Of a stretch of 63,062 bases of DNA, positions 31,274-54,319 are shown in pieces. The DNA is from Bacteroidota bacterium (lineage in GTDB: Bacteria > Bacteroidota > Bacteroidia > B-17B0 > Aurantibacillaceae), in assembly GCA_021323535.1 (NCBI GenBank), contig JAJONO010000031.1, positions 1 through 63,062 of the forward strand. Direction: 5' to 3'. Numbering within the stretch: position 1 is the stretch's first letter; every line of letters starts with the position of its first letter. The translations under genes were made by a program, and so were the position numbers. The notes under the pieces are model-generated. The model made no database searches, was not told the DNA's origin, and was given only the letters and a program-made list of their open reading frames with translations.

Positions 31274-33231
31274 CAGTTCAGTTTAATTCCTATGGCAGAG
31301 ATATCATCGGTTTGTTCCGTATTCTTTTTCCAGTTATTTAATTCTTCTTCTATATTTTGTTTTTGCTGTTTAAATCCGAGGTGAGCCGAAGACGACAACC
31401 ATTCTTTAAACTGCTTCACTTTAATTTTTTTACCGGCAGGACCGCCGAACTGATCAACGATCCCATCAGAAAATAAATATACTTTTAAATTTTCACTTAT
31501 AGTGACTTTCTGTTCCGTAAAATTTTCCTGTCGCTCGTAAACCCCTATTGGTTGTTTATTTGGCTTAAGTTCCAGAATTTCATTAGTATTATTTAACAAA
31601 AGGGCCGTAGAGTTTGCCCCCGCATACAACAGTTCTTTATCATTAAAAGCAATAATTGCCATATCCATTCCATCACGTTTGTCGGAACCATCGATACTCA
31701 AAATAGTGATGACCTCTTTTCTTAAATGATCAAGAATAAGCGCCGGAGAAATAATTCCTTTTTCATTAACGATCTGGTTCAGCAATGTAATTCCTATCAT
31801 ACTCATAAAAGCTCCTGGAACACCATGGCCCGTACAATCGGCCAGAGCTATAATCTTATACCCCTTATGTTCGGTGAACCAGTAAAAATCGCCACTTACA
31901 ATATCGCGCGGTTTAAATATCACGAAAGCGTCCTTTACCGAATTTTTCAGTTTTTCTTCGCTGATGATAAGTGCACTCTGAATTTTCTGGGCATAATTAA
32001 TACTGTCTGTAATATCCTTATGTTTTTCTTCAATGAGCTGTTTTTGTTCAGAGATGATAGAATTTCTTTCTTTGAGGATCTTATTATTTCTGAAAAATGT
32101 TACCACATAAAATAATAATGCCAGAACAATGATGGTACCAAGAATAATAACGCCCAGCTGTTTTTGTTTTTCCTGTTCAACTTTACTAAGAGCAAGATCT
32201 TTTTCAAGCAACTCAGATTGTTTCTGCTCCATTTGAATATCAGATTCCAGCTGGGAGATCTTACTACTTGATTCTTCTTTCTCAAAAACAGCATTCAGTT
32301 TATTTTTAAGGATCATGTATTCGTACGCTTTTTTGTAATCTCCCATCTGTGAAAAAACCTGGTCATACGTATCATAAACTTCTACCTGGAGTTTTTTAAA
32401 TTCGTAACGGTTGGCAATGTTCAGGGCAGAATCGGCAAGTAAGAGAGCCTGCGTATAATTCTTTCTGTCTTTTTCGAGGAGAGCTATATTATTGAGCGAG
32501 CCTCCCACGCCAAGCAGGTCATTGTCTTTGAGACGGTACTCGAGCCCCATCATAAAATATTTTCGTGCCGAATCGGGCTTCTGTTTTACAAGATAAACAA
32601 TACCAAGGTTATTATAATCATTACCAAGCTGATCGGTACGGTTATTTAATTCATCGTCTTTAACCGATCGCAAAAAATATTCAAATGCCATGTCCCAATC
32701 GCCCCGGTTACCATAAGCTATACCCATGTTGTTGTAGGCCTTTGAAACAGGAATTTTTAATTTATATTTTTTGATGGCGGCAATCTGCTTATTAAAATAT
32801 TCAATAGCTTTTGAAAAATTTCCCTGGCTGATACTAATTAGTCCGAGTTCGCCATACGCATCATACAACCAGCTTTTTTTGTTTTCGGTTTTAATAGCGT
32901 TATTCAATAACAAGTTGCAATAATAAATACTTGAATCTACCTGGCCCAGGATACGCAGGATGGTGGCTTTGCGTATATAGCGTTTAAAGAATTTTTTATT
33001 AGGATCGTACTTACTGTAATAGTACATGGACTTATTAATATGTACGAGGGCTTTTTTAGGGTTGCTCAGAAAATCCCCTGATAATGCAAGGTACGCATTA
33101 GACTTAGTGGTATCATTTGCATTTGAAGATACAATAGCATTGAGCGAGTCCCTGTTGTATTTCTGACCTGTTAAGGATAACGAAATACAATGGGCTATAA
33201 ATAAAAAAAATATAAGGCGTTTATTCCTCAA
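31273..33231 (-). CDS. TPR-containing SpoIIE-family serine phosphatase, TTG start
   Basis: About 652 residues. I use TTG at 33231 because it gives a signal peptide (RNKRLIFFLFIAHCISLSLTG) and overlaps the sigma-54 activator stop by 11 nt; the ATG at 33294 only adds sequence that lies in that gene's end. Order: signal peptide, six or so TPRs (about 40-300), membrane segment near 380 (VIILGTIIVLALLFYVVTFF), coiled coil, then the PP2C/SpoIIE domain with ADCTGHGVPGAFMS, DGMDMAI, FSDGIVDQFGG and TDDISAIGI, metal-binding Asp residues present. It should dephosphorylate a phospho-serine/threonine protein in response to a periplasmic signal. The target is unknown. Confidence 0.88.
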   Translation of the reverse strand: MRNKRLIFFLFIAHCISLSLTGQKYNRDSLNAIVSSNANDTTKSNAYLALSGDFLSNPKKALVHINKSMYYYSKYDPNKKFFKRYIRKATILRILGQVDSSIYYCNLLLNNAIKTENKKSWLYDAYGELGLISISQGNFSKAIEYFNKQIAAIKKYKLKIPVSKAYNNMGIAYGNRGDWDMAFEYFLRSVKDDELNNRTDQLGNDYNNLGIVYLVKQKPDSARKYFMMGLEYRLKDNDLLGVGGSLNNIALLEKDRKNYTQALLLADSALNIANRYEFKKLQVEVYDTYDQVFSQMGDYKKAYEYMILKNKLNAVFEKEESSSKISQLESDIQMEQKQSELLEKDLALSKVEQEKQKQLGVIILGTIIVLALLFYVVTFFRNNKILKERNSIISEQKQLIEEKHKDITDSINYAQKIQSALIISEEKLKNSVKDAFVIFKPRDIVSGDFYWFTEHKGYKIIALADCTGHGVPGAFMSMIGITLLNQIVNEKGIISPALILDHLRKEVITILSIDGSDKRDGMDMAIIAFNDKELLYAGANSTALLLNNTNEILELKPNKQPIGVYERQENFTEQKVTISENLKVYLFSDGIVDQFGGPAGKKIKVKQFKEWLSSSAHLGFKQQKQNIEEELNNWKKNTEQTDDISAIGIKLN

Positions 33232-45829: not shown

Positions 45830-47935
45830 TCAAATCCTCACCCCAATCACACAAACATCATCGAGTTGCTCGAGGTTACCTTTCCACGAATTGAATTCAC
45901 TTTCGAGGAGCTCTTTTTGTTTTTGAAGAGGTTGGGATGAAACAGAAAATAAAAATTCTTCCAGTTGTTTGTATTTGAATTTCTTCCCTTTTGGTCCGCC
46001 AAACTGGTCGGCATAACCATCGGTAAAAGAATAAACAGTATCGTTTTTTTGAAGCTCAACTTTTTGTTGCGTAAATTTCTGTTCCACCGAATGGCTATAA
46101 CCAACAGGAATTTTATCTGCTTTCAGAATCATCATTTCATTGCCTCTTTTGATCCACACAGGATTATTTGCGGCGCCTGCCAGAAGCTCTGTTCTGTTTT
46201 TATTAATGCGGCAAACAGTCATATCCATTCCATCTTTATTTTCACCTGCAATTCCTTTTTGTTTTAAGGAAGCGATTATCTTTTCGCGAAGAGCTGTTAG
46301 TATTTCCCGAGGTTCGAGAATATTTTTCTCAAGTACCACTTCAGTGAGAAGCGACGTGGCCAGCATGCTCATGAATCCACCCGGCACGCCATGTCCGGTA
46401 CAGTCTACAGTTGCATAAAAAGTGTATCCGTCTTTTTCACAGCACCAGTAAAAATCACCGCTCACAATATCCTTTGGTTTGAAGAGCACAAAACTATCTC
46501 CTACAATTGATCTGAATTCATCTTCGGCAGGTAAAATGGCCCGCTGAATCTTCTGGGCATAATTAATACTGTCAATGATTTCTTTATTCTGATGCTCCAC
46601 AATTTGTTTTTGCTGAAGCACCTCTTCATTTTTAAGATTGAGCTTACGGTTCCCTTTTCTTACTTCCAGGTACATTTTTGTTGCCACGCCAAGAAGGCCA
46701 AGTAATAAAATTGTACCAATGATAAATATTTTTCTCTCACGGTCCTTGTAATCGAGATCCTTTTGAAGAGAGTTGTTTTTCAGATTTGCTTCGGCAATTT
46801 CTTTCGACTTCTTTTCATTCTGATAAATGGCCTCCATTTCCGCGGTTTGCTCAGCCACATCTTTTTTATGTAATGCTTCCTGTATCTCAATGATCTCATC
46901 ATCGCATTGGATAAGTTTTTCGGAATTCCTTTTCACTTTTAAGAAATCCCTCATTCTAAAAAGTATATCGAGCCTGGATTTTTTGTCGTTTGTAGGACGT
47001 GAAATCAGCTCAGCCTCCATGATACATTTTTCAGCTTTATCTAATTGTTTTAAGCGGAGATAAATTGTGGTTACATTAGCCAATGAGGTTGCCAGTGCAA
47101 GTTCTCTGCCCTTTAGTTGTCTTTTCAGTTCTATGGATTTTAGATAAACGTCGAGAGCTTTCTGGTCCTGATTCGTTTTTTCATACAGCAGGGCAAGGCT
47201 GTTATAGTTGGATGCGAGAAGCGCGGGTATATTCGATTTTTCGGCGCCTGCAATAGAGAGTTTAAAGTACTTTTCCGCTGAATCGTATTGCTTGCGATCC
47301 CGGTAAAGCACGCCAATCTGTCGGTAATTACTGATCATTTTGTTCTCGGCATCATCATTTTTAATTAGCAAAGCCTTATAAGCGATTTTTGCCTTTTCAA
47401 AATACTCGAAAGCTTTTAGCGAATTATCGTATTTTTTAAAAAGCGTTCCCATCTGGCTCGTCACAAAAAATTTTTCTTCCGGGTAATTATCACTTTTATT
47501 GAGCACTTCTATGTAAATAGACAAGGCTTTGTCAAGCATGTTGGCTTCTACATAAACATCTGCTATAAATCTTTGGGAGCGATTAGCCATTTGAGGTTTA
47601 TTCAGTTTGGTAAAGATGTCACTGGCCTCTCTGAACTTTTTTACGGCTGTGCCGGAATCGTTAAGTATTTGCACATCCTGTTTGCCGGTGAGCATTAATA
47701 ACATAGCCGCCTGTTCTCTTTTTCCGGTTTCCCTGAAAACATTGATGGCGGCGTTAAGATTTTTGATGGCGCTTTTTGAAGAATCCCTGTAAATCTTTTC
47801 AACCCGGTTAAGTACCACATCGTAATCACGTTCGGTAATATCTCCAAAAGTTTTATACAGATTAGGATTCTGACAATAATGTGTTCGTACAGATAAAAGA
47901 AGAAAAGCAAAAAGTAAGATTTTAAAGGGCTTCAC
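45830..47935 (-). CDS. TPR-containing SpoIIE-family serine phosphatase
   Basis: 701 residues. Signal peptide (FKILLFAFLLLSVRTHYCQ), a TPR solenoid of about 320 residues (LARGYF-type units such as IAGAEKSNIPALLASNYNS), a coiled coil from about 365, a membrane segment near 400 (IFIIGTILLLGLLGVATKMY), then the SpoIIE/PP2C domain: VDCTGHGVPGGFMS, DGMDMTV, FTDGYADQFGG and LDDVCVIGVRI. Metal-binding Asp residues are present. The gene follows the giant GAF phosphatase gene by 6 nt on the same strand, and their catalytic domains are clearly paralogous, as is the one at 31273-33231. Confidence 0.9.
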   Translation of the reverse strand: MKPFKILLFAFLLLSVRTHYCQNPNLYKTFGDITERDYDVVLNRVEKIYRDSSKSAIKNLNAAINVFRETGKREQAAMLLMLTGKQDVQILNDSGTAVKKFREASDIFTKLNKPQMANRSQRFIADVYVEANMLDKALSIYIEVLNKSDNYPEEKFFVTSQMGTLFKKYDNSLKAFEYFEKAKIAYKALLIKNDDAENKMISNYRQIGVLYRDRKQYDSAEKYFKLSIAGAEKSNIPALLASNYNSLALLYEKTNQDQKALDVYLKSIELKRQLKGRELALATSLANVTTIYLRLKQLDKAEKCIMEAELISRPTNDKKSRLDILFRMRDFLKVKRNSEKLIQCDDEIIEIQEALHKKDVAEQTAEMEAIYQNEKKSKEIAEANLKNNSLQKDLDYKDRERKIFIIGTILLLGLLGVATKMYLEVRKGNRKLNLKNEEVLQQKQIVEHQNKEIIDSINYAQKIQRAILPAEDEFRSIVGDSFVLFKPKDIVSGDFYWCCEKDGYTFYATVDCTGHGVPGGFMSMLATSLLTEVVLEKNILEPREILTALREKIIASLKQKGIAGENKDGMDMTVCRINKNRTELLAGAANNPVWIKRGNEMMILKADKIPVGYSHSVEQKFTQQKVELQKNDTVYSFTDGYADQFGGPKGKKFKYKQLEEFLFSVSSQPLQKQKELLESEFNSWKGNLEQLDDVCVIGVRI

Positions 47936-47941
47936 AATGTA

Positions 47942-50900
47942 CTATATTTTCACGCCAATTACACAAACGTCGTCGATCTGCTCCAGCGAACCTTTCCAGG
48001 CTTCAAATGTAGAGTCAAGGATCTGTTTCTGTTCTGTCATTGGTTTGTCACAAATACTTAGCACTTTTTCCTTGAAATTTTTGAATTTGAATTTCTTTCC
48101 ATTGCCGCCGCCAAACTGGTCGGCATAACCATCGGTCAGAAGATAAATCGTATCGCCGGGTAACACATCGATCTCGGTAAGATCAAATCGTTTTCCATCT
48201 GTTGAATGCCCACCGATAGAGAATTTGTTCGGACGGTACTCAATGATCTCTTTATTTCTTACTAGTAAGAGCGGACGATGAGCGCCCGAATACTGTAATT
48301 TATTTTTTGTTTTGTAGTAAGCACAAAGTGCAATATCCATACCATCATTGGCCGAAGCTTCAGAACTTTTTTTGATCAGTTGAACCAAACGCTCATCAAT
48401 TGCGGTTAACGCGGCAGCAGGGTCGTAGATCTTCTGATCGTTTACGACTTTGTACATGATATCGCTGCAAATTAACGACATGAAAGCTCCTGGCACACCA
48501 TGCCCGGTACAATCAGCGGCTGCAAACACCGTAGTTCCGTTTTCGAAATGATCGAACCAGTAAAAGTCGCCCGATACAATATCCTTAGGTTTGTAAAGAA
48601 TGAAACTGTCGGTAAAATTGCGATTAAATTCATCAATATTAGGAGCAATAGCTTGCTGAATTTTTTTCGCGTATTTGATACTGTCGGTAATATCCTTGTT
48701 CTTTTCCTCAATGATCGCTTTTTGCTTATGAACCTCGGCTGTGCGTTCCTCCACTTTTACTTCCAGATTCTGATATAGGCTGGCGTTATCGAGCGCGATA
48801 GCAATAGACAGCGCCATGTTCTTGAGAATGTTAACGTGAAAATCCTGGAACGCATTTTTAGTAAAGCACTGCGCCGTTACAACGCCAATCTTTTTCTCTT
48901 TGGTATAAAGCGGTAAATAAATAAGCGATTCAGGAAGTTCACCTACAATTGATTTTTTAAGATGATTGGTATACTTGATATAATCTTTCTGATGATCGTT
49001 AATGATCACTTCAAGATCTTTTTCGAAACACATCACGGCGTAACGTTCTTTATCGTTAAGCGATACTTCAACATACGGAAGCTTCTCCCCTTTTTCAATA
49101 AAGCCGGAGAATCCGATAGTCTGATTTTGTTCGTTATACAAACCTATACCGAATGATTCGGCATTAAGTATAGATCTTACATTTTCATAAACTTTAGATA
49201 CAATGGTTTCTACCGAAAGTGATGAAGCAATGGCTTTAGCGATCTCAGCGGAAAGTTTTACGTCGTTAAAGTTTTTCTCAAGTAATTCTTTTTGTTTGGT
49301 AACTTCTTTGGTACGTTCTGCTACCATATCCTCCATGTTCTGATACAGGAAGGCATTGTCAATAGCGATGGCAACATATACAGCAAGATTCTTGAGGATC
49401 TGAACATGATAATCGGTATAAGCGTTGCTTTTGGTACTTTGTACTGTAATAACACCAATTACTTTTTCTTTAAGAACCATTGGAAGGTAAATAACTGATT
49501 GTGTATCGAGGCCCGCAAACATCTGTGGTTTTACTTTGCCAACATAGGATTCGACTTCGCCTTTAAAATCGTTGATGATGATATCGCGATTGTCATTATA
49601 ACAGAGATAGGTGAGTTTATCTTTCTCCGTAATATCATAAACCATGGCCGAAAATTTGTCTTCCCCTTCAATGAAAAGAGGATAAACAATTTTCTTCGTG
49701 TCTTTGTTGTAGAGTCCAACCCCAAAACACACCGCGTCCATAAGACTTGTGATCTTGGCATACACCTTATCAATGATCTCTTCAACAGATAAGGTAGATG
49801 TAATGTCGTTACCGATTTTGGTAAGCGTACGCTGATCTTCGAATGTTTTTTCGAGCTGATCTTTTTGTTTGATTACCTCTAACGTTCTTTCCTTCACCTT
49901 TTCTTCGAGATTCTGGTAAAGATTCGCGTTATCGAGGGCGATACCAATTGATACCGCAAGATTTTTTAAGATGTTGAATTGGTATTCTGAATACGCATTT
50001 GGCTCAAAACTCTGTACGGTGAACACACCTATAATTTTTCCTTTTGCGTAAAGAGGAATGTATGCGATCGATGTAGAGTCTTTACCCGACACCGGTGCTT
50101 TCATACCCGAAATATATTTCTTGTACTCTTTTGAATAATCGTTAATTAAAATTTCAACTTCGTTAGTGAAGCAATATGCAGCAAGCCTGTTAGGATCGTT
50201 TGCGAGGTAAGCAAAATCTTCCATGACCTGGTCGTTCTCCACAAATCCTTTGAACTCCAGATTTTTATTGGCAGGATTATAAACACCAATACCAAACATG
50301 GTAGCATCCATCAGCTTATTTACATTTTCATATAATTTGCTGTTAATGGTTTCAACCGATAAAGACGCGCTGATATCTTCCGCTATCTGGCTCAACAACC
50401 TCGTATTTTCGTAGGCTGTGGTGATCTCATCGGTTCGCTCTTTTACACGCTCCTCCATTCCTGAATAAAGGGAAGCATTATCTAAAGCGATAGCCGTGTA
50501 AAGCGCCAGATTTTTTAATAACTGGAGGTGATAATCGTTATAAGCGTGTGGCACATAACTCTGAACAGTAATTACGCCAATCCTTTTATTATTTTGTGTT
50601 AGAGGAATGTAAAGAATTGATTCCGTATTTTTTCCCGGAAGCGAATTACGTGTGGCCACTTTATTGCTTTTCACAAATTCTTCTGTGAAATTCTGGATCA
50701 CAATTTCTTTTTGTGTCTGGAAACAAATCACGGCAGGACGGCCACTATCACTTAAAGCGTAACTGTAATCGTCGAGCCTGTTGGCTTCTTCAATAGCCCC
50801 TCTGAACCATACCCTGTCTGACTCCTGGTCATAGATACCAATACCAAACATGGTAGCATCCATTAACTTATTGATACGGTTATAGACTTTACTGATGATT

Positions 50901-53900
50901 TCTTCAATGGAGAACGTTGTCGAAATTTCTTGTCCGATCTCACTTACGAGGCGGGTGTTTTCGAAAGTTTTCTCGATCTGTTCTTTTTGTTTTACAACCT
51001 CCGAAGTACGTTCGTTCACTTTCTCTTCCATATTCTGGTAAAGAGCCGCGTTATCGAGCGCAATACCAATGGAAATAGCCAGGTTCTTTAAAATATTAAG
51101 CTGGTAAGCAGAGTAAGCGTCTTTCTCCAGACTCTGAACAGTAAGAACACCGATGGTACTTTCTTTAGAAACTATAGGTAAATAAATGATGGAAACATTC
51201 TGGTTACCAAGAATTGGATTTTTCGTTTCTTTAAGATACCGGGTATATTCAACAGCAAAATTATTAATAACAATATCTTCTTTCCTGTTAAAACAAATAC
51301 AACCCAGCCTTTCTTCATTCGATACTTCCATAGCGAAATCGTCAAGCCTGGCGCCATTCTCAATAAACCCTTTGAATTCGAGACATTGGTTCTGCGGATT
51401 AAAAATGGCGATCCCGAAAGTTTCGGCTTTCATTAACACGTTAATGTTTTTGTAAACCGAAGAAATAATGGTTTGTACTGAAAGAGACGCGCTGATCTCT
51501 TTTGCGATCTCACTCAATAACTGAGTATCGTTGTAATTTTTTTCGATCTCGGCCGTGCGCTCATGAACCCTTTCTTCCATGTCGTTGTATAACGACGCGT
51601 TATCGATAGCGATGGCGGTATAAACGGCGAGACTTTTTATGAGTTGTAAATGATAATCGTTGTATGCATCCGGAACATAACTCTGAACCGTAAGTACGCC
51701 GATCTTTTTGTCGTTCTGTGTTACCGGAACATAAATAATAGATTCTGTAGCGTCGCCCTGTAAAACTTTAATGTCTGTGATCTTCTTGTTTTTTACAAAT
51801 TCTTCGCTGAAATTATTGATCACATATTCCTTCTGGTTGGTATAACACCATACGGCGGGACGTTCGGTTTGCGAAAGTGTATAAAAATATTCGTCGAGTT
51901 CTTTGCCATTCTCAATAACACCGCTGAAATTGATTCGTCCGCTTTCCCTGTCAAAAATACCTATACCAAACATAGTGGCATCCATAAGTTTATTTACACT
52001 GGTATAAACTTTACTGATGATCTCGCGGATAGAAAACGTACTTGAAATTTCTTTACCGATCTCACTCACGAGACGCGTGTTCTCGAACGTTTTTTCGATC
52101 TGTTCTTTTTGCTTTACAACTTCTTTGGTACGCTCGTTTACTTTTTCCTCCATGTTTTCATAGAGGTAAGCATTCTCAAGCGCGGTGGCTGTATAAGTAG
52201 CAAGTGTTTTTAAAATTTCGAGATGGTGTGGTTGGTAAGCGTGATACTGGAAACTCTGAACCGTGATAACGCCAATGAGTTTCTCTCCAATCATCATTGG
52301 TGTAAACATAAGGGAGTTTGGCATGTCGCCACTCACTACCCTGATCTGTTTTACATATTTGGTATATTCGGTTTTATTATCGTTCAGGAAAATATCCTTA
52401 CGGTTCTTGATGCACCAAACGGTGTAATTATTATCATCGGTTAAAGGAACAGTCATTACTTCATCGTAAAGCTCCCCCCTTTCCATTTCAAACTTATATT
52501 CAACCGAATTTGTTTCAGGCTTGTAGATACGTACCCCGAAACATTCAACCGACATAACTTCGTTGATACTGTGATATAATTTTTTGAAGATCTTACCGAG
52601 GTTCAGATTAGAAGTTATTTCCCTTCCAATTTCATTGATCTTTTTATTGATCTGATAAGCGCGTTCAATTTCTTCTTTGCTTTTAACGAGTTCCTGGGTT
52701 CTTTCTTCTACCTTTTGTTCCTGTTCCTCATACAGTTTTGCATTTTCAATAGCAATAGCGGTGTACGTGGCAAGGTTGCGGAAAATATTTAAATGGTAAT
52801 TCCCGTAAGCGTTCTTATTAAAACTCTGAACAGTGATAACACCTAAGAGACTATCTTTATATTTTAATGGAAGATAAATGATCGATTCTACATTTCGTCC
52901 CGCTTTTGGCTGGGCCGATTGTTTAATGTATTTACCGATTTCTGATTCAAAATCGTTGATGACAATTTCCTGTTCCTTGTTATAACAAACTACGGTAAGG
53001 CGGTTATTATCGGTGATATCGTACTTAATATCTTCAAATGTTTCACCGTCTTCGATATAAAGAGGGAAAATAATCGTGTCATCAGCTTTGTTGAATAAGC
53101 CGATCCCAAAACCTTTTGCATCCATTAACGAGTTTACACTTTTATAAACCGTGTTAACAATGGTAGCAACCGAGAGGCTTGAGATGATCTGCTGGCCCAC
53201 CTGGCTCATGACTGTGAGGCTGTTCGAAAAATTTTCGAGCTCCTTGGCACGTTCTTCGAGAATGGCTTTTTCGGCGGCCGACTGAAGTACGGTATTCTGA
53301 AGTTCGAAACTTTTAGAAAGCTGTTCGGTTTTTAAACTCCTTACATCTTCTTTGGCCTGGTGAAATATTTTGTAATATCTGAATGCTTCTGTAACATTTC
53401 CCTGTTGTTCATATAACTCAGCTAGTTTTTCGCTTGACTGGTAAACGGCTTCCTTTGATCCTATCTTCAATGATAAATCATACGCCATTTTGAGATACTC
53501 GATAGCTTTTGATATATCGTTTTTTTGAATGTACAGATAACCAATATTAGTGAGGTTTGTTGCTTCGCCTACTTTGAAAGAAACACGTCGGCGTATATCG
53601 AGACTTTTGTTATAATATTCTTCGGCCTTATCAAATTTCTTAAGGGCCGCATAGGTACGCCCCATTCCATCATAAGTGTATGCTTCAACCTGTATGGATT
53701 TTATTTCGTTAACAACTGTAAGACAATCTTCAAAATAATTAAGGGCCTTATCGTATTGTTTAAGATTGTAATAGGTTTCCCCTAATCCGTTCTGGATCTT
53801 CACCAGGCTGGATTTGTGATTGTGTTTACGGCAGAGTTTTTCTCCTTCGAGCAGGGCCTCAAGAGCTTTTTCATTCTGGTGAATCGTGTAGTATACCGTG

Positions 53901-54319
53901 CCAATGCCATTAAGGGCATCGGCCATTCCGGGTTCAAAACTGATTTTAGAATTAAGATCATAACCCATCTTGTAACACTTCAGAGCCGCATCGTAATCAG
54001 ACATGAAATAAAAATTGGTTCCGAGGTTCACGTAAACAACGGCGCCATTTTGTTTGTCCTTAAGAGCTTTAAAAAGATTATTAGCTTCAAGAGAATATTT
54101 TACACCATCGTCGTTCCTGGAGGTCCAGATATAACAGGCTCCAATGGTACGTTTGGCAAAGGCAATTCCTTTTGTGTAATCAAGTCCGGTTGATTTTTCA
54201 AGCGCCTCATTGGCCAGTTCCAACGCTTTAGCGGAATTTTCGCGATTCAGGTTCCAGGCCTCGCGGTTTAACTCATCAATTTCATGAGTTAAAGTATTGG
54301 TAAGGGGCAATTCCGACAT
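47942..54319 (-). CDS. Giant TPR-8xGAF-SpoIIE serine phosphatase
   Basis: 2125 residues, without signal peptide or membrane segment, so probably cytoplasmic. Order: N-terminal TPR solenoid (about 1-330), coiled coil, eight GAF domains in tandem, coiled coil (KAIIEEKNKDITDSIKYAKK), SpoIIE/PP2C domain (about 1890-2125) with ADCTGHGVPGAFMS, DGMDIAL, LTDGYADQFGG and IDDVCVIGVKI. The GAF copies are marked by an SIIYLPL-type strand at about residues 476, 669, 861, 1043, 1235, 1418, 1608 and 1800, a regular 182-193 residue step. Each is joined to the next by a coiled helix with ERTxE (YENMEEKVNERTKEV). GAF 3-4 and 5-6 are close copies of one another. The ligands are unknown; cyclic nucleotides or small molecules are usual for GAF domains. 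Confidence 0.92.
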   Translation of the reverse strand: MSELPLTNTLTHEIDELNREAWNLNRENSAKALELANEALEKSTGLDYTKGIAFAKRTIGACYIWTSRNDDGVKYSLEANNLFKALKDKQNGAVVYVNLGTNFYFMSDYDAALKCYKMGYDLNSKISFEPGMADALNGIGTVYYTIHQNEKALEALLEGEKLCRKHNHKSSLVKIQNGLGETYYNLKQYDKALNYFEDCLTVVNEIKSIQVEAYTYDGMGRTYAALKKFDKAEEYYNKSLDIRRRVSFKVGEATNLTNIGYLYIQKNDISKAIEYLKMAYDLSLKIGSKEAVYQSSEKLAELYEQQGNVTEAFRYYKIFHQAKEDVRSLKTEQLSKSFELQNTVLQSAAEKAILEERAKELENFSNSLTVMSQVGQQIISSLSVATIVNTVYKSVNSLMDAKGFGIGLFNKADDTIIFPLYIEDGETFEDIKYDITDNNRLTVVCYNKEQEIVINDFESEIGKYIKQSAQPKAGRNVESIIYLPLKYKDSLLGVITVQSFNKNAYGNYHLNIFRNLATYTAIAIENAKLYEEQEQKVEERTQELVKSKEEIERAYQINKKINEIGREITSNLNLGKIFKKLYHSINEVMSVECFGVRIYKPETNSVEYKFEMERGELYDEVMTVPLTDDNNYTVWCIKNRKDIFLNDNKTEYTKYVKQIRVVSGDMPNSLMFTPMMIGEKLIGVITVQSFQYHAYQPHHLEILKTLATYTATALENAYLYENMEEKVNERTKEVVKQKEQIEKTFENTRLVSEIGKEISSTFSIREIISKVYTSVNKLMDATMFGIGIFDRESGRINFSGVIENGKELDEYFYTLSQTERPAVWCYTNQKEYVINNFSEEFVKNKKITDIKVLQGDATESIIYVPVTQNDKKIGVLTVQSYVPDAYNDYHLQLIKSLAVYTAIAIDNASLYNDMEERVHERTAEIEKNYNDTQLLSEIAKEISASLSVQTIISSVYKNINVLMKAETFGIAIFNPQNQCLEFKGFIENGARLDDFAMEVSNEERLGCICFNRKEDIVINNFAVEYTRYLKETKNPILGNQNVSIIYLPIVSKESTIGVLTVQSLEKDAYSAYQLNILKNLAISIGIALDNAALYQNMEEKVNERTSEVVKQKEQIEKTFENTRLVSEIGQEISTTFSIEEIISKVYNRINKLMDATMFGIGIYDQESDRVWFRGAIEEANRLDDYSYALSDSGRPAVICFQTQKEIVIQNFTEEFVKSNKVATRNSLPGKNTESILYIPLTQNNKRIGVITVQSYVPHAYNDYHLQLLKNLALYTAIALDNASLYSGMEERVKERTDEITTAYENTRLLSQIAEDISASLSVETINSKLYENVNKLMDATMFGIGVYNPANKNLEFKGFVENDQVMEDFAYLANDPNRLAAYCFTNEVEILINDYSKEYKKYISGMKAPVSGKDSTSIAYIPLYAKGKIIGVFTVQSFEPNAYSEYQFNILKNLAVSIGIALDNANLYQNLEEKVKERTLEVIKQKDQLEKTFEDQRTLTKIGNDITSTLSVEEIIDKVYAKITSLMDAVCFGVGLYNKDTKKIVYPLFIEGEDKFSAMVYDITEKDKLTYLCYNDNRDIIINDFKGEVESYVGKVKPQMFAGLDTQSVIYLPMVLKEKVIGVITVQSTKSNAYTDYHVQILKNLAVYVAIAIDNAFLYQNMEDMVAERTKEVTKQKELLEKNFNDVKLSAEIAKAIASSLSVETIVSKVYENVRSILNAESFGIGLYNEQNQTIGFSGFIEKGEKLPYVEVSLNDKERYAVMCFEKDLEVIINDHQKDYIKYTNHLKKSIVGELPESLIYLPLYTKEKKIGVVTAQCFTKNAFQDFHVNILKNMALSIAIALDNASLYQNLEVKVEERTAEVHKQKAIIEEKNKDITDSIKYAKKIQQAIAPNIDEFNRNFTDSFILYKPKDIVSGDFYWFDHFENGTTVFAAADCTGHGVPGAFMSLICSDIMYKVVNDQKIYDPAAALTAIDERLVQLIKKSSEASANDGMDIALCAYYKTKNKLQYSGAHRPLLLVRNKEIIEYRPNKFSIGGHSTDGKRFDLTEIDVLPGDTIYLLTDGYADQFGGGNGKKFKFKNFKEKVLSICDKPMTEQKQILDSTFEAWKGSLEQIDDVCVIGVKI
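48750..53220 (-). repeat. Eight tandem GAF-domain coding repeats
   Basis: The coding region is periodic at about 570 bp. Parts of the linkers are alike at DNA level (for example TCGATCTGTTCTTTTTG near 50976 and near 52096, about 1,120 bp apart, which is two units), as expected if pairs of domains were duplicated. Confidence 0.8.

Follow-up and report, generated by a model that had tools for sequence, protein, structure and literature searches.

How far conformational signals can travel through coiled-coil linkers, and whether sensors placed in series add, gate or cooperate, is an open question on which a single gene of a Bacteroidota bacterium bears. The gene lies in a stretch of 63,062 nucleotides (nt), hereafter the window (contig JAJONO010000031.1 of assembly GCA_021323535.1, positions 1 to 63,062), where one open reading frame (ORF) at 47942-54319 on the minus strand, with an ATG start and without an internal stop, encodes a protein of 2125 residues, P0001. 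This protein combines TPRs, eight tandem GAF domains and a C-terminal SpoIIE/PP2C phosphatase domain. Given that GAF domains, S-helices and PP2C domains all have precedents, the array is a new arrangement of known parts; its striking features are the pairing of its GAF domains and the strict helical phase of the linkers between them. The reading that we prefer, and to which we give about an even chance of being right, is that of a soluble SiaA-type phosphatase working as a parallel dimer; its GAF pairs would hand helix motions on in register, and its substrate would be a SiaC-like phosphoprotein.

An earlier note, made from the letters of the window, had described the 2125-residue frame, its TPRs, eight GAF domains and a phosphatase domain with catalytic Asp residues, and this layout was borne out by profile searches, which Pfam provided for P0001 alone; the strand was absent from that description. 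The N-terminal TPR region (about residues 13-345; 53285-54283, outer bounds approximate) is recognised by Pfam TPR_12 in four stretches and by other TPR models. Pfam GAF_2 then matches in eight stretches, at 318.6 bits against a cut-off of 28.6. As delimited by Pfam, a unit profile and a unit tree, and all on the minus strand, the odd-type domains are GAF1 (residues 368-538; 52706-53218), GAF3 (745-919; 51563-52087), GAF5 (1119-1293; 50441-50965) and GAF7 (1493-1667; 49319-49843). The even-type domains are GAF2 (555-728; 52136-52657), GAF4 (929-1102; 51014-51535), GAF6 (1303-1476; 49892-50413) and GAF8 (1684-1857; 48749-49270), of which GAF4 and GAF6 follow a short intra-pair linker. The phosphatase domain, a member of the SpoIIE/PP2C (PPM) family, occupies residues 1927-2124 (47948-48541, minus strand; PF07228, 64.7 bits against a cut-off of 25), with its metal-binding Asp present. 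No membrane helix is evident in P0001, in which the best 19-residue Kyte-Doolittle mean is 1.47, compared with 2.17 in a neighbouring paralogue, and the cytoplasmic location suggested in the earlier note is therefore reasonable.

Each GAF domain is followed by the helical ERT-x-E linker that had also been noticed, with exactly eight such motifs in the chain, at residues 539, 729, 920, 1103, 1294, 1477, 1668 and 1858. The first, that of S-helix 1, lies at 52697-52705, while the last S-helix continues into an output helix from GAF8 to the phosphatase (residues 1858-1900; 48620-48748; bounds approximate, and part of it of low confidence in the model), both on the minus strand. The steps from one ERT to the next are 190, 191, 183, 191, 183, 191 and 190 residues, all within the step of 182-193 residues given earlier for the GAF domains. 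They form two classes, of about 190 and of 183 residues, which differ by one heptad.

A gene of this kind could be suspected of misassembly from repeats. Its internal DNA repeats, which have a period of 1122 nt or two GAF domains, are 67-73% identical, the longest exact repeat is 27 nt, and orthologues of the array, mostly complete, occur in sister genomes and in named Bacteroidetes/Bacteroidia metagenome-assembled genomes. Together these make repeat misassembly unlikely, and it was rejected.

The composition of the array becomes apparent when its relatives are compared. A unit profile built from the eight GAF units of the window was used to count units in 40 ORFs from 39 loci, drawn from 35 of the 44 matching genomes of the family together with two named contigs, PLYR and JANYCL. 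(Genomes are denoted by G, loci by L and contigs by C numbers.) The other nine matching genomes are G068, G070, G072, G078, G080, G082, G083, G085 and G086, of which G072 may belong to the species of JANYCL, and further copies of the array exist outside the sample, for example in G007:C21, G052:C113 and G092:C448. Assignment to the TPR-GAFn-SpoIIE type followed lengths (first GAF at 363-383, tail of 267-276 residues) and, for 13 genomes, also alignment to P0001. It retained 33 proteins; the remaining seven ORFs are a second, cut copy from G052 and six (G041a, G041b, G066, G076, G012b and G054) that have another architecture or were not shown to share this one. The GAF count is even in 30 of the 33 and ranges from 2 to 12: twelve in one protein, ten in two, eight in two, seven in one, six in sixteen, four in seven, three in two (G102 and G089) and two in two. 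Contig ends cut G098 before the array and G053 and G092 behind it, and the counts for G098 and G092 may be minima. The seven units of G052 read odd-odd-even-odd-even-odd-even, as if GAF2 had been lost.

Parity is also written in the units themselves. With near-duplicates dropped, a FastTree tree of 140 units from 23 of the 33 proteins separates odd-position from even-position units as different types, and its main clades, read by eye from the drawing, are parity-pure once the shift caused by the lost GAF2 of G052 is allowed for. When the odd/even label was mapped on the 133 units outside G052, it changed once on the tree, compared with 44.7 changes on average, and never fewer than 37, in 200 within-protein shuffles. 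A quick IQ-TREE run on 127 labelled units from 22 proteins likewise gave a single change, the deep odd/even branch having a weak support of 31. The best reading of these sequences is that the repeat unit of the array is the GAF pair, (odd-even)n, that the oldest split among units is that between odd and even, and that the two-GAF proteins of PLYR and G065 resemble the ancestral form.

Whether this parity says anything about function is, however, contestable. Copy number might be neutral, with unequal recombination between units two apart adding or removing 1122-nt blocks and only the helical phase under selection. The repeats have precisely this pair period, and in P0001, where unit identity spans 36-69% in the seven pairs compared, units two apart can resemble each other more than neighbours do (units 3 and 5, 69%; 4 and 6, 55%; against 45% for 3 and 4), so that a preference for pairs would follow from recombination alone. 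For further units at this distance, identity does not exceed that of neighbours (5 and 7, 40%; 1 and 3, 42%; 2 and 4, 36%). Nor does neutrality, taken alone, account for the persistence of the odd/even split in every lineage examined, or for the exceptional linker, shorter by 11 residues, at the odd-odd joint of G052, although this joint might be no more than what an imprecise deletion left behind. Recombination alone may account for the pair rule, and we regard it as a serious rival to a functional pair, quite possible while somewhat less probable than the reading that we prefer.

The linkers provide the second line of evidence. Helix length was taken from a fixed point in the last helix of one GAF to a fixed point in the next, and 167 of the 173 inter-GAF helices in the 40 ORFs could be measured. 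They are 62 residues long in 116 cases, 55 in 47 and 51 in 4, and no other length occurs; the six remaining helices, judged by profile coordinates, have linkers of 16 or 9, the values that go with 62 and 55. Relative to the 62-residue helix, the shorter forms lack 7 and 11 residues, and in coiled coils seven residues correspond to two turns and eleven to three (PMC6798134). The inter-GAF linkers therefore keep a fixed helical phase. Unlike the linkers, the GAF bodies show single-residue gaps even among the eight units of the window. In coordinates of the hidden Markov model, for 32 proteins with G052 set aside, the pair-to-pair linker is 16 in all 60 cases, while the intra-pair linker is 16 in 46 and 9 in 44 of 90. 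The four 51-residue helices occur at the odd-odd joint of G052 and at three joints in G041a, for which no TPR was matched.

The same linkers bear the signature of the S-helix. Exact ERT stands behind 154 of the 213 units and RT behind at least 199 of them, and in P0001 the ERT-x-E motif is present in eight of eight linkers, between signalling domains and, as judged by eye, within one and the same a/d heptad pattern that places the R at position d, the two short linkers being one heptad shorter. The S-helix, as defined in 2006, is a parallel coiled coil whose central heptad contains ERT; it is set between sensor domains and outputs that include PP2C, and was suggested to prevent constitutive activation (PMC1592074). 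There too, the R falls at position d. The array thus shares with the published S-helix its signature, its heptads, its sensor-output position and PP2C among the outputs. It differs in repeating the S-helix eight times in a chain, seven of these between GAF and GAF, whereas the account of PMC1592074, in the parts available, places the S-helix between two domains and treats inter-GAF linkers as a separate class. That linker length can govern output is known from a LOV histidine kinase whose activity depends on it with a seven-residue period (PMC6798134), and in RsbU and, by prediction, in other PPM phosphatases a coiled-coil linker dimerises and activates the catalytic domains (PMC12143880).

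Structure prediction is broadly consistent with such helices inside the pairs. AlphaFold modelled GAF7-GAF8-phosphatase from 9 sequences (mean predicted local distance difference test, pLDDT, 74.5; predicted template modelling score, pTM, 0.40) with one 63-residue helix between the two GAF domains, and GAF3-GAF6 from 7 sequences (pLDDT 73.6, pTM 0.32) with 56-residue helices inside the GAF3-4 and GAF5-6 pairs. In a Foldseek search with the former model, in which 1000 candidates were re-aligned, the GAF7-GAF8 part found its best match among these in the GAF-A/B region of PDE5A (3lfv, Z 21.8), with a root-mean-square deviation (rmsd) of 13.6 over both domains. Like GAF7-GAF8, the GAF-A/GAF-B tandems of vertebrate PDE5, PDE6 and PDE2 have two GAFs one after the other with a long helix between them; at this rmsd, only the order and the rough layout correspond, and these enzymes have one pair rather than four and a different output domain.

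What the GAF domains sense can be approached through their conserved residues. Four alignment columns, two of G and one each of P and Q, do not vary in any of the 213 units, and a Cys (alignment column 85) is kept in 197 of 213, including all eight of P0001; some of these core residues may serve the fold only, while with the Cys a redox or thiol-linked signal becomes a candidate. Cyclic-nucleotide-binding GAF domains of the PDE type carry an NKXnFX3DE motif. No match to it was found in P0001, and by this motif its GAF domains do not belong to that type. With two alternating unit types that share their invariant residues, the sequences point to one kind of input, or two, sensed repeatedly, although different ligands are also possible. 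The idea of the earlier note that the eight GAFs could sum several signals is not supported in the sense of eight independent inputs. Pockets could indeed differ, for the units of P0001 are in part distant from one another (36% identity at the lowest) and the loops differ between odd-type and even-type GAFs. Nevertheless, the units are copies of two types that share their invariant residues and, to judge from the counts, it is whole pairs that are gained and lost, which suits repetition of the same input; independent sensors summed at the phosphatase therefore seem improbable.

The array could, alternatively, be a passive spacer or scaffold, in which the coiled coil only keeps a partner on the TPRs at a set distance from the phosphatase, while the GAF domains are ligand-free structural beads. 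The occurrence of 2 to 12 copies between ends of similar length, which would mean that the spacing tolerates the loss or gain of whole pairs, fits this proposal, as does the lack of the cyclic-nucleotide motif. The invariant G, G, P and Q and the nearly invariant Cys are not obviously needed by a spacer, though a fold core could explain them, and neither is the persistence of two distinct unit types over the arrays examined. We consider a passive spacer unlikely, if less so than independent sensors.

At the output end, the phosphatase domain is SiaA-like by both sequence and predicted fold. Its one match among PDB sequences at E values up to 0.01 is SiaA (6k4e, E 2.8e-32), the PP2C phosphatase of the SiaABC partner switch of Pseudomonas aeruginosa (PMC7647112), whose solved fragment comprises the PP2C domain only, and the same structure is the top re-aligned candidate of the Foldseek search (Z 27.3). 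SiaA is thus the nearest solved domain in both searches. The six active-site residues described for SiaA, D457, D474, G477, D600, G601 and D653 (PMC7647112), have identical counterparts in P0001, mapped by hand on the 6k4e alignment: D1918, which lies just before the Pfam stretch, D1936, G1939, D2063, G2064 and D2116.

The target, which the earlier note found not to be visible, now has a candidate. The genome (G000, 5.3 Mb) has four SiaC genes in three loci, each of which also contains DUF6272 (SiaB-like) genes. Measured from start to start, each of the four SiaC genes has a SpoIIE gene no more than 2.1 kb away, although at most 7.4% of the genome is that near to one, and three such loci would arise by chance with a probability of about 0.0004, a rough figure that ignores the clustering of SpoIIE genes. 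The threonine of the SiaC phospho-site is kept as well, as YFNT in four of four SiaC proteins of the genome, compared with LNT (T68) in P. aeruginosa (PMC7647112). From the SiaA-like domain and these SiaC/SiaB loci, we infer that a SiaC-like phosphoprotein is the candidate target of the array phosphatase. A compact locus in which such genes follow one another on one strand is L115:4236-7231, with a SpoIIE phosphatase, two SiaB-like genes and two SiaC genes in that order; DUF6272 was confirmed there for one of the two SiaB-like proteins.

Taken together, the observations could be accommodated by the following scheme. P0001 would be a soluble SiaA-type serine/threonine phosphatase, most likely a parallel homodimer, whose sensor is a rod of four odd+even GAF pairs, in which S-helix coiled coils connect one pair to the next and the TPR domain forms the input end. 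A ligand or a redox change in the GAF domains, or a partner bound to the TPRs, would make the coiled coil twist differently or become more or less stable. Keeping helical register, this shift would run along the GAF pairs as far as the last S-helix, and that helix would bring the two PP2C domains into an active dimer. The active phosphatase would then dephosphorylate a SiaC-like phosphoprotein and so oppose a SiaB-like kinase.

Several findings weigh against this scheme. The NCBIfam SiaA equivalog model NF038263 scores P0001 at 191.8 bits where 700 are required (best stretch, residues 1850-2124), so that the catalytic domain is SiaA-like and not SiaA, and the array gene itself adjoins neither siaB nor siaC. 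The prokaryotic inter-GAF coiled coils known in 2006 were, according to the available part of PMC1592074, antiparallel and without the ERT signature, and a parallel dimer is accordingly not certain; since those coils had no ERT, its presence in the array linkers is informative. The AlphaFold models are monomeric and shallow in their few sequences and low pTM. In one, the helix from GAF8 to the phosphatase has low confidence, with model residues 372-403 below pLDDT 50; in the other, the sole modelled pair-to-pair helix, between GAF4 and GAF5, is broken at the ERT with low confidence (it ends at model residue 367 and restarts at 374). This break could be a hinge or a failure of prediction, and signals may not pass smoothly from pair to pair. 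The long lever imagined in the earlier note is supported by the phase kept in the 167 measured helices and by the continuous helices of 56-63 residues inside three modelled pairs; the GAF4-GAF5 break speaks against a rod without any interruption.

A further difficulty is that the genome offers another target route, with two STAS proteins, one of which has an NSSG site, together with a single strong RsbW-like ATPase, 135 residues long, so that the phosphatase might belong to a partner switch of RsbV/RsbW type and have a STAS-domain antagonist, rather than SiaC, as its target. By the list of 94 SpoIIE places, none is near the STAS or RsbW-like genes, no search for sigma-B having been made. On the contig of one STAS gene (C125) the SpoIIE domain is about 93 kb off, against at most 2.1 kb for every SiaC gene, and the contigs of the other STAS gene and of the RsbW-like gene (C111 and C42) have no listed SpoIIE. 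The phosphatase also resembles SiaA more than RsbU-type or SpoIIE structures, and a STAS target appears to us about as unlikely as a passive spacer.

A bolder conjecture may be entertained, in which the GAF pair is a repeating allosteric unit and rod length sets gain or cooperativity. Every pair would rotate the coiled coil through the same angle, and added pairs would tune the strength with which a ligand switches phosphatase activity. Lineages would then adjust their response by whole pairs, from one to six, with the phase kept, and in G052 an 11-residue shift at the odd-odd joint would have compensated for the loss of a single GAF. This is a speculative extension, and we think it unlikely. 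The arrays do provide a natural length series, of one to six GAF pairs with similar ends, in which the linkers change only by 7 or 11 residues.

Among described systems, the nearest layout found is that of RsbZ, a general stress phosphatase of Clostridioides difficile in which a coiled-coil linker leads from tandem GAF domains to a PPM phosphatase (PMC12143880). The available text of that paper gives RsbZ tandem N-terminal GAFs and mentions neither an array of eight nor TPRs. Cyanobacteriochromes also carry several GAF domains in a chain, and the phrase 'seven GAF domains' occurs in the literature; these proteins bind bilins. No description of the TPR-GAF8-SpoIIE architecture was found in the open-licence literature, which is weak evidence of its absence.

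The genomic setting raises a question of its own. The genome has 94 SpoIIE domains, two of them also in the window (31279-31854 and 45833-46432), against four SiaC and two STAS proteins. The question is how many inputs feed into this small set of known partners. Across a sample of 246 further Bacteroidota genomes of at least 90% completeness, no first-look number among the matches listed exceeds 21, and 41 genomes are without a match. A genome of another family of the same class (G031), from another sample, has 47 SpoIIE matches, which means that large sets are not confined to the genus. Within the genus, counts among 25 members begin at 1, the high ones being lower bounds. All 13 members with the array have at least 29 matches, and 11 of the 12 without it have at most 20, the twelfth (G001) having 31; kinship alone could explain this association.

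The GAF part of the array is found at E values up to 1e-50 in 44 of 87 genomes of the family, and a sample of the order, also of 87 genomes, again gave 44 matches. The longest arrays, L058 (G008, 12 GAFs), L094 (G051, 10) and L095 (G044, 10), have phosphatase domains 44-46% identical to that of the window, below the 58-61% of G067 and G073 from another genus; domain swap or paralogy would account for such divergent ends. Related architectures also occur. In G066, a TPR-less array of six GAFs of the same unit family (L104:2010-6299) ends in a HisKA-HATPase histidine kinase, its five linkers all 16 and in the same phase. In L097:3529-9585 (G054), L105 and L108 (G041 and G076), these GAFs are mixed with PAS domains before SpoIIE, the G054 protein having six PAS_9 stretches in 2019 residues. 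Within the genome of the window, three other GAF proteins considered as paralogues of the array were rejected by the array GAF profile, which gave one match of 33.7 bits on the 1778-residue protein, a weak one of 14.3 bits on the 1260-residue protein and no printed match on the 2277-residue protein.

The neighbourhood of the gene is conserved only in part. An SppA gene lies upstream of the window gene and of 7 of 20 distinct array genes with flanks (L039, L059, L062, L063, L098, L110 and L037/L018), and was not found in the other 13, so that orthology rests on sequence and gene order supports it in part of the genus. Downstream, 6 nt behind the array gene, lies a TPR-transmembrane-SpoIIE gene (45830-47935, minus strand), whose phosphatase end shares 83% identity with that of the array gene over 76 nt. 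A role of this neighbour as a conserved partner was not upheld. In tblastn searches (E up to 1e-25) of the flanks, of about 1 to 8 kb, at 24 loci representing those 20 array genes, four of which are present twice, a similar SpoIIE gene follows only two arrays, those of G008 (32% identity over 647 residues) and G044 (28% over 492), both too distant to be called the same gene, and none lies behind the G016 array within the 8-kb flank of L039. In G007, the N-terminal part of the array protein is matched once more, at C21:252280-254292, by a stretch that contains two internal TAG stops and is apparently decayed.

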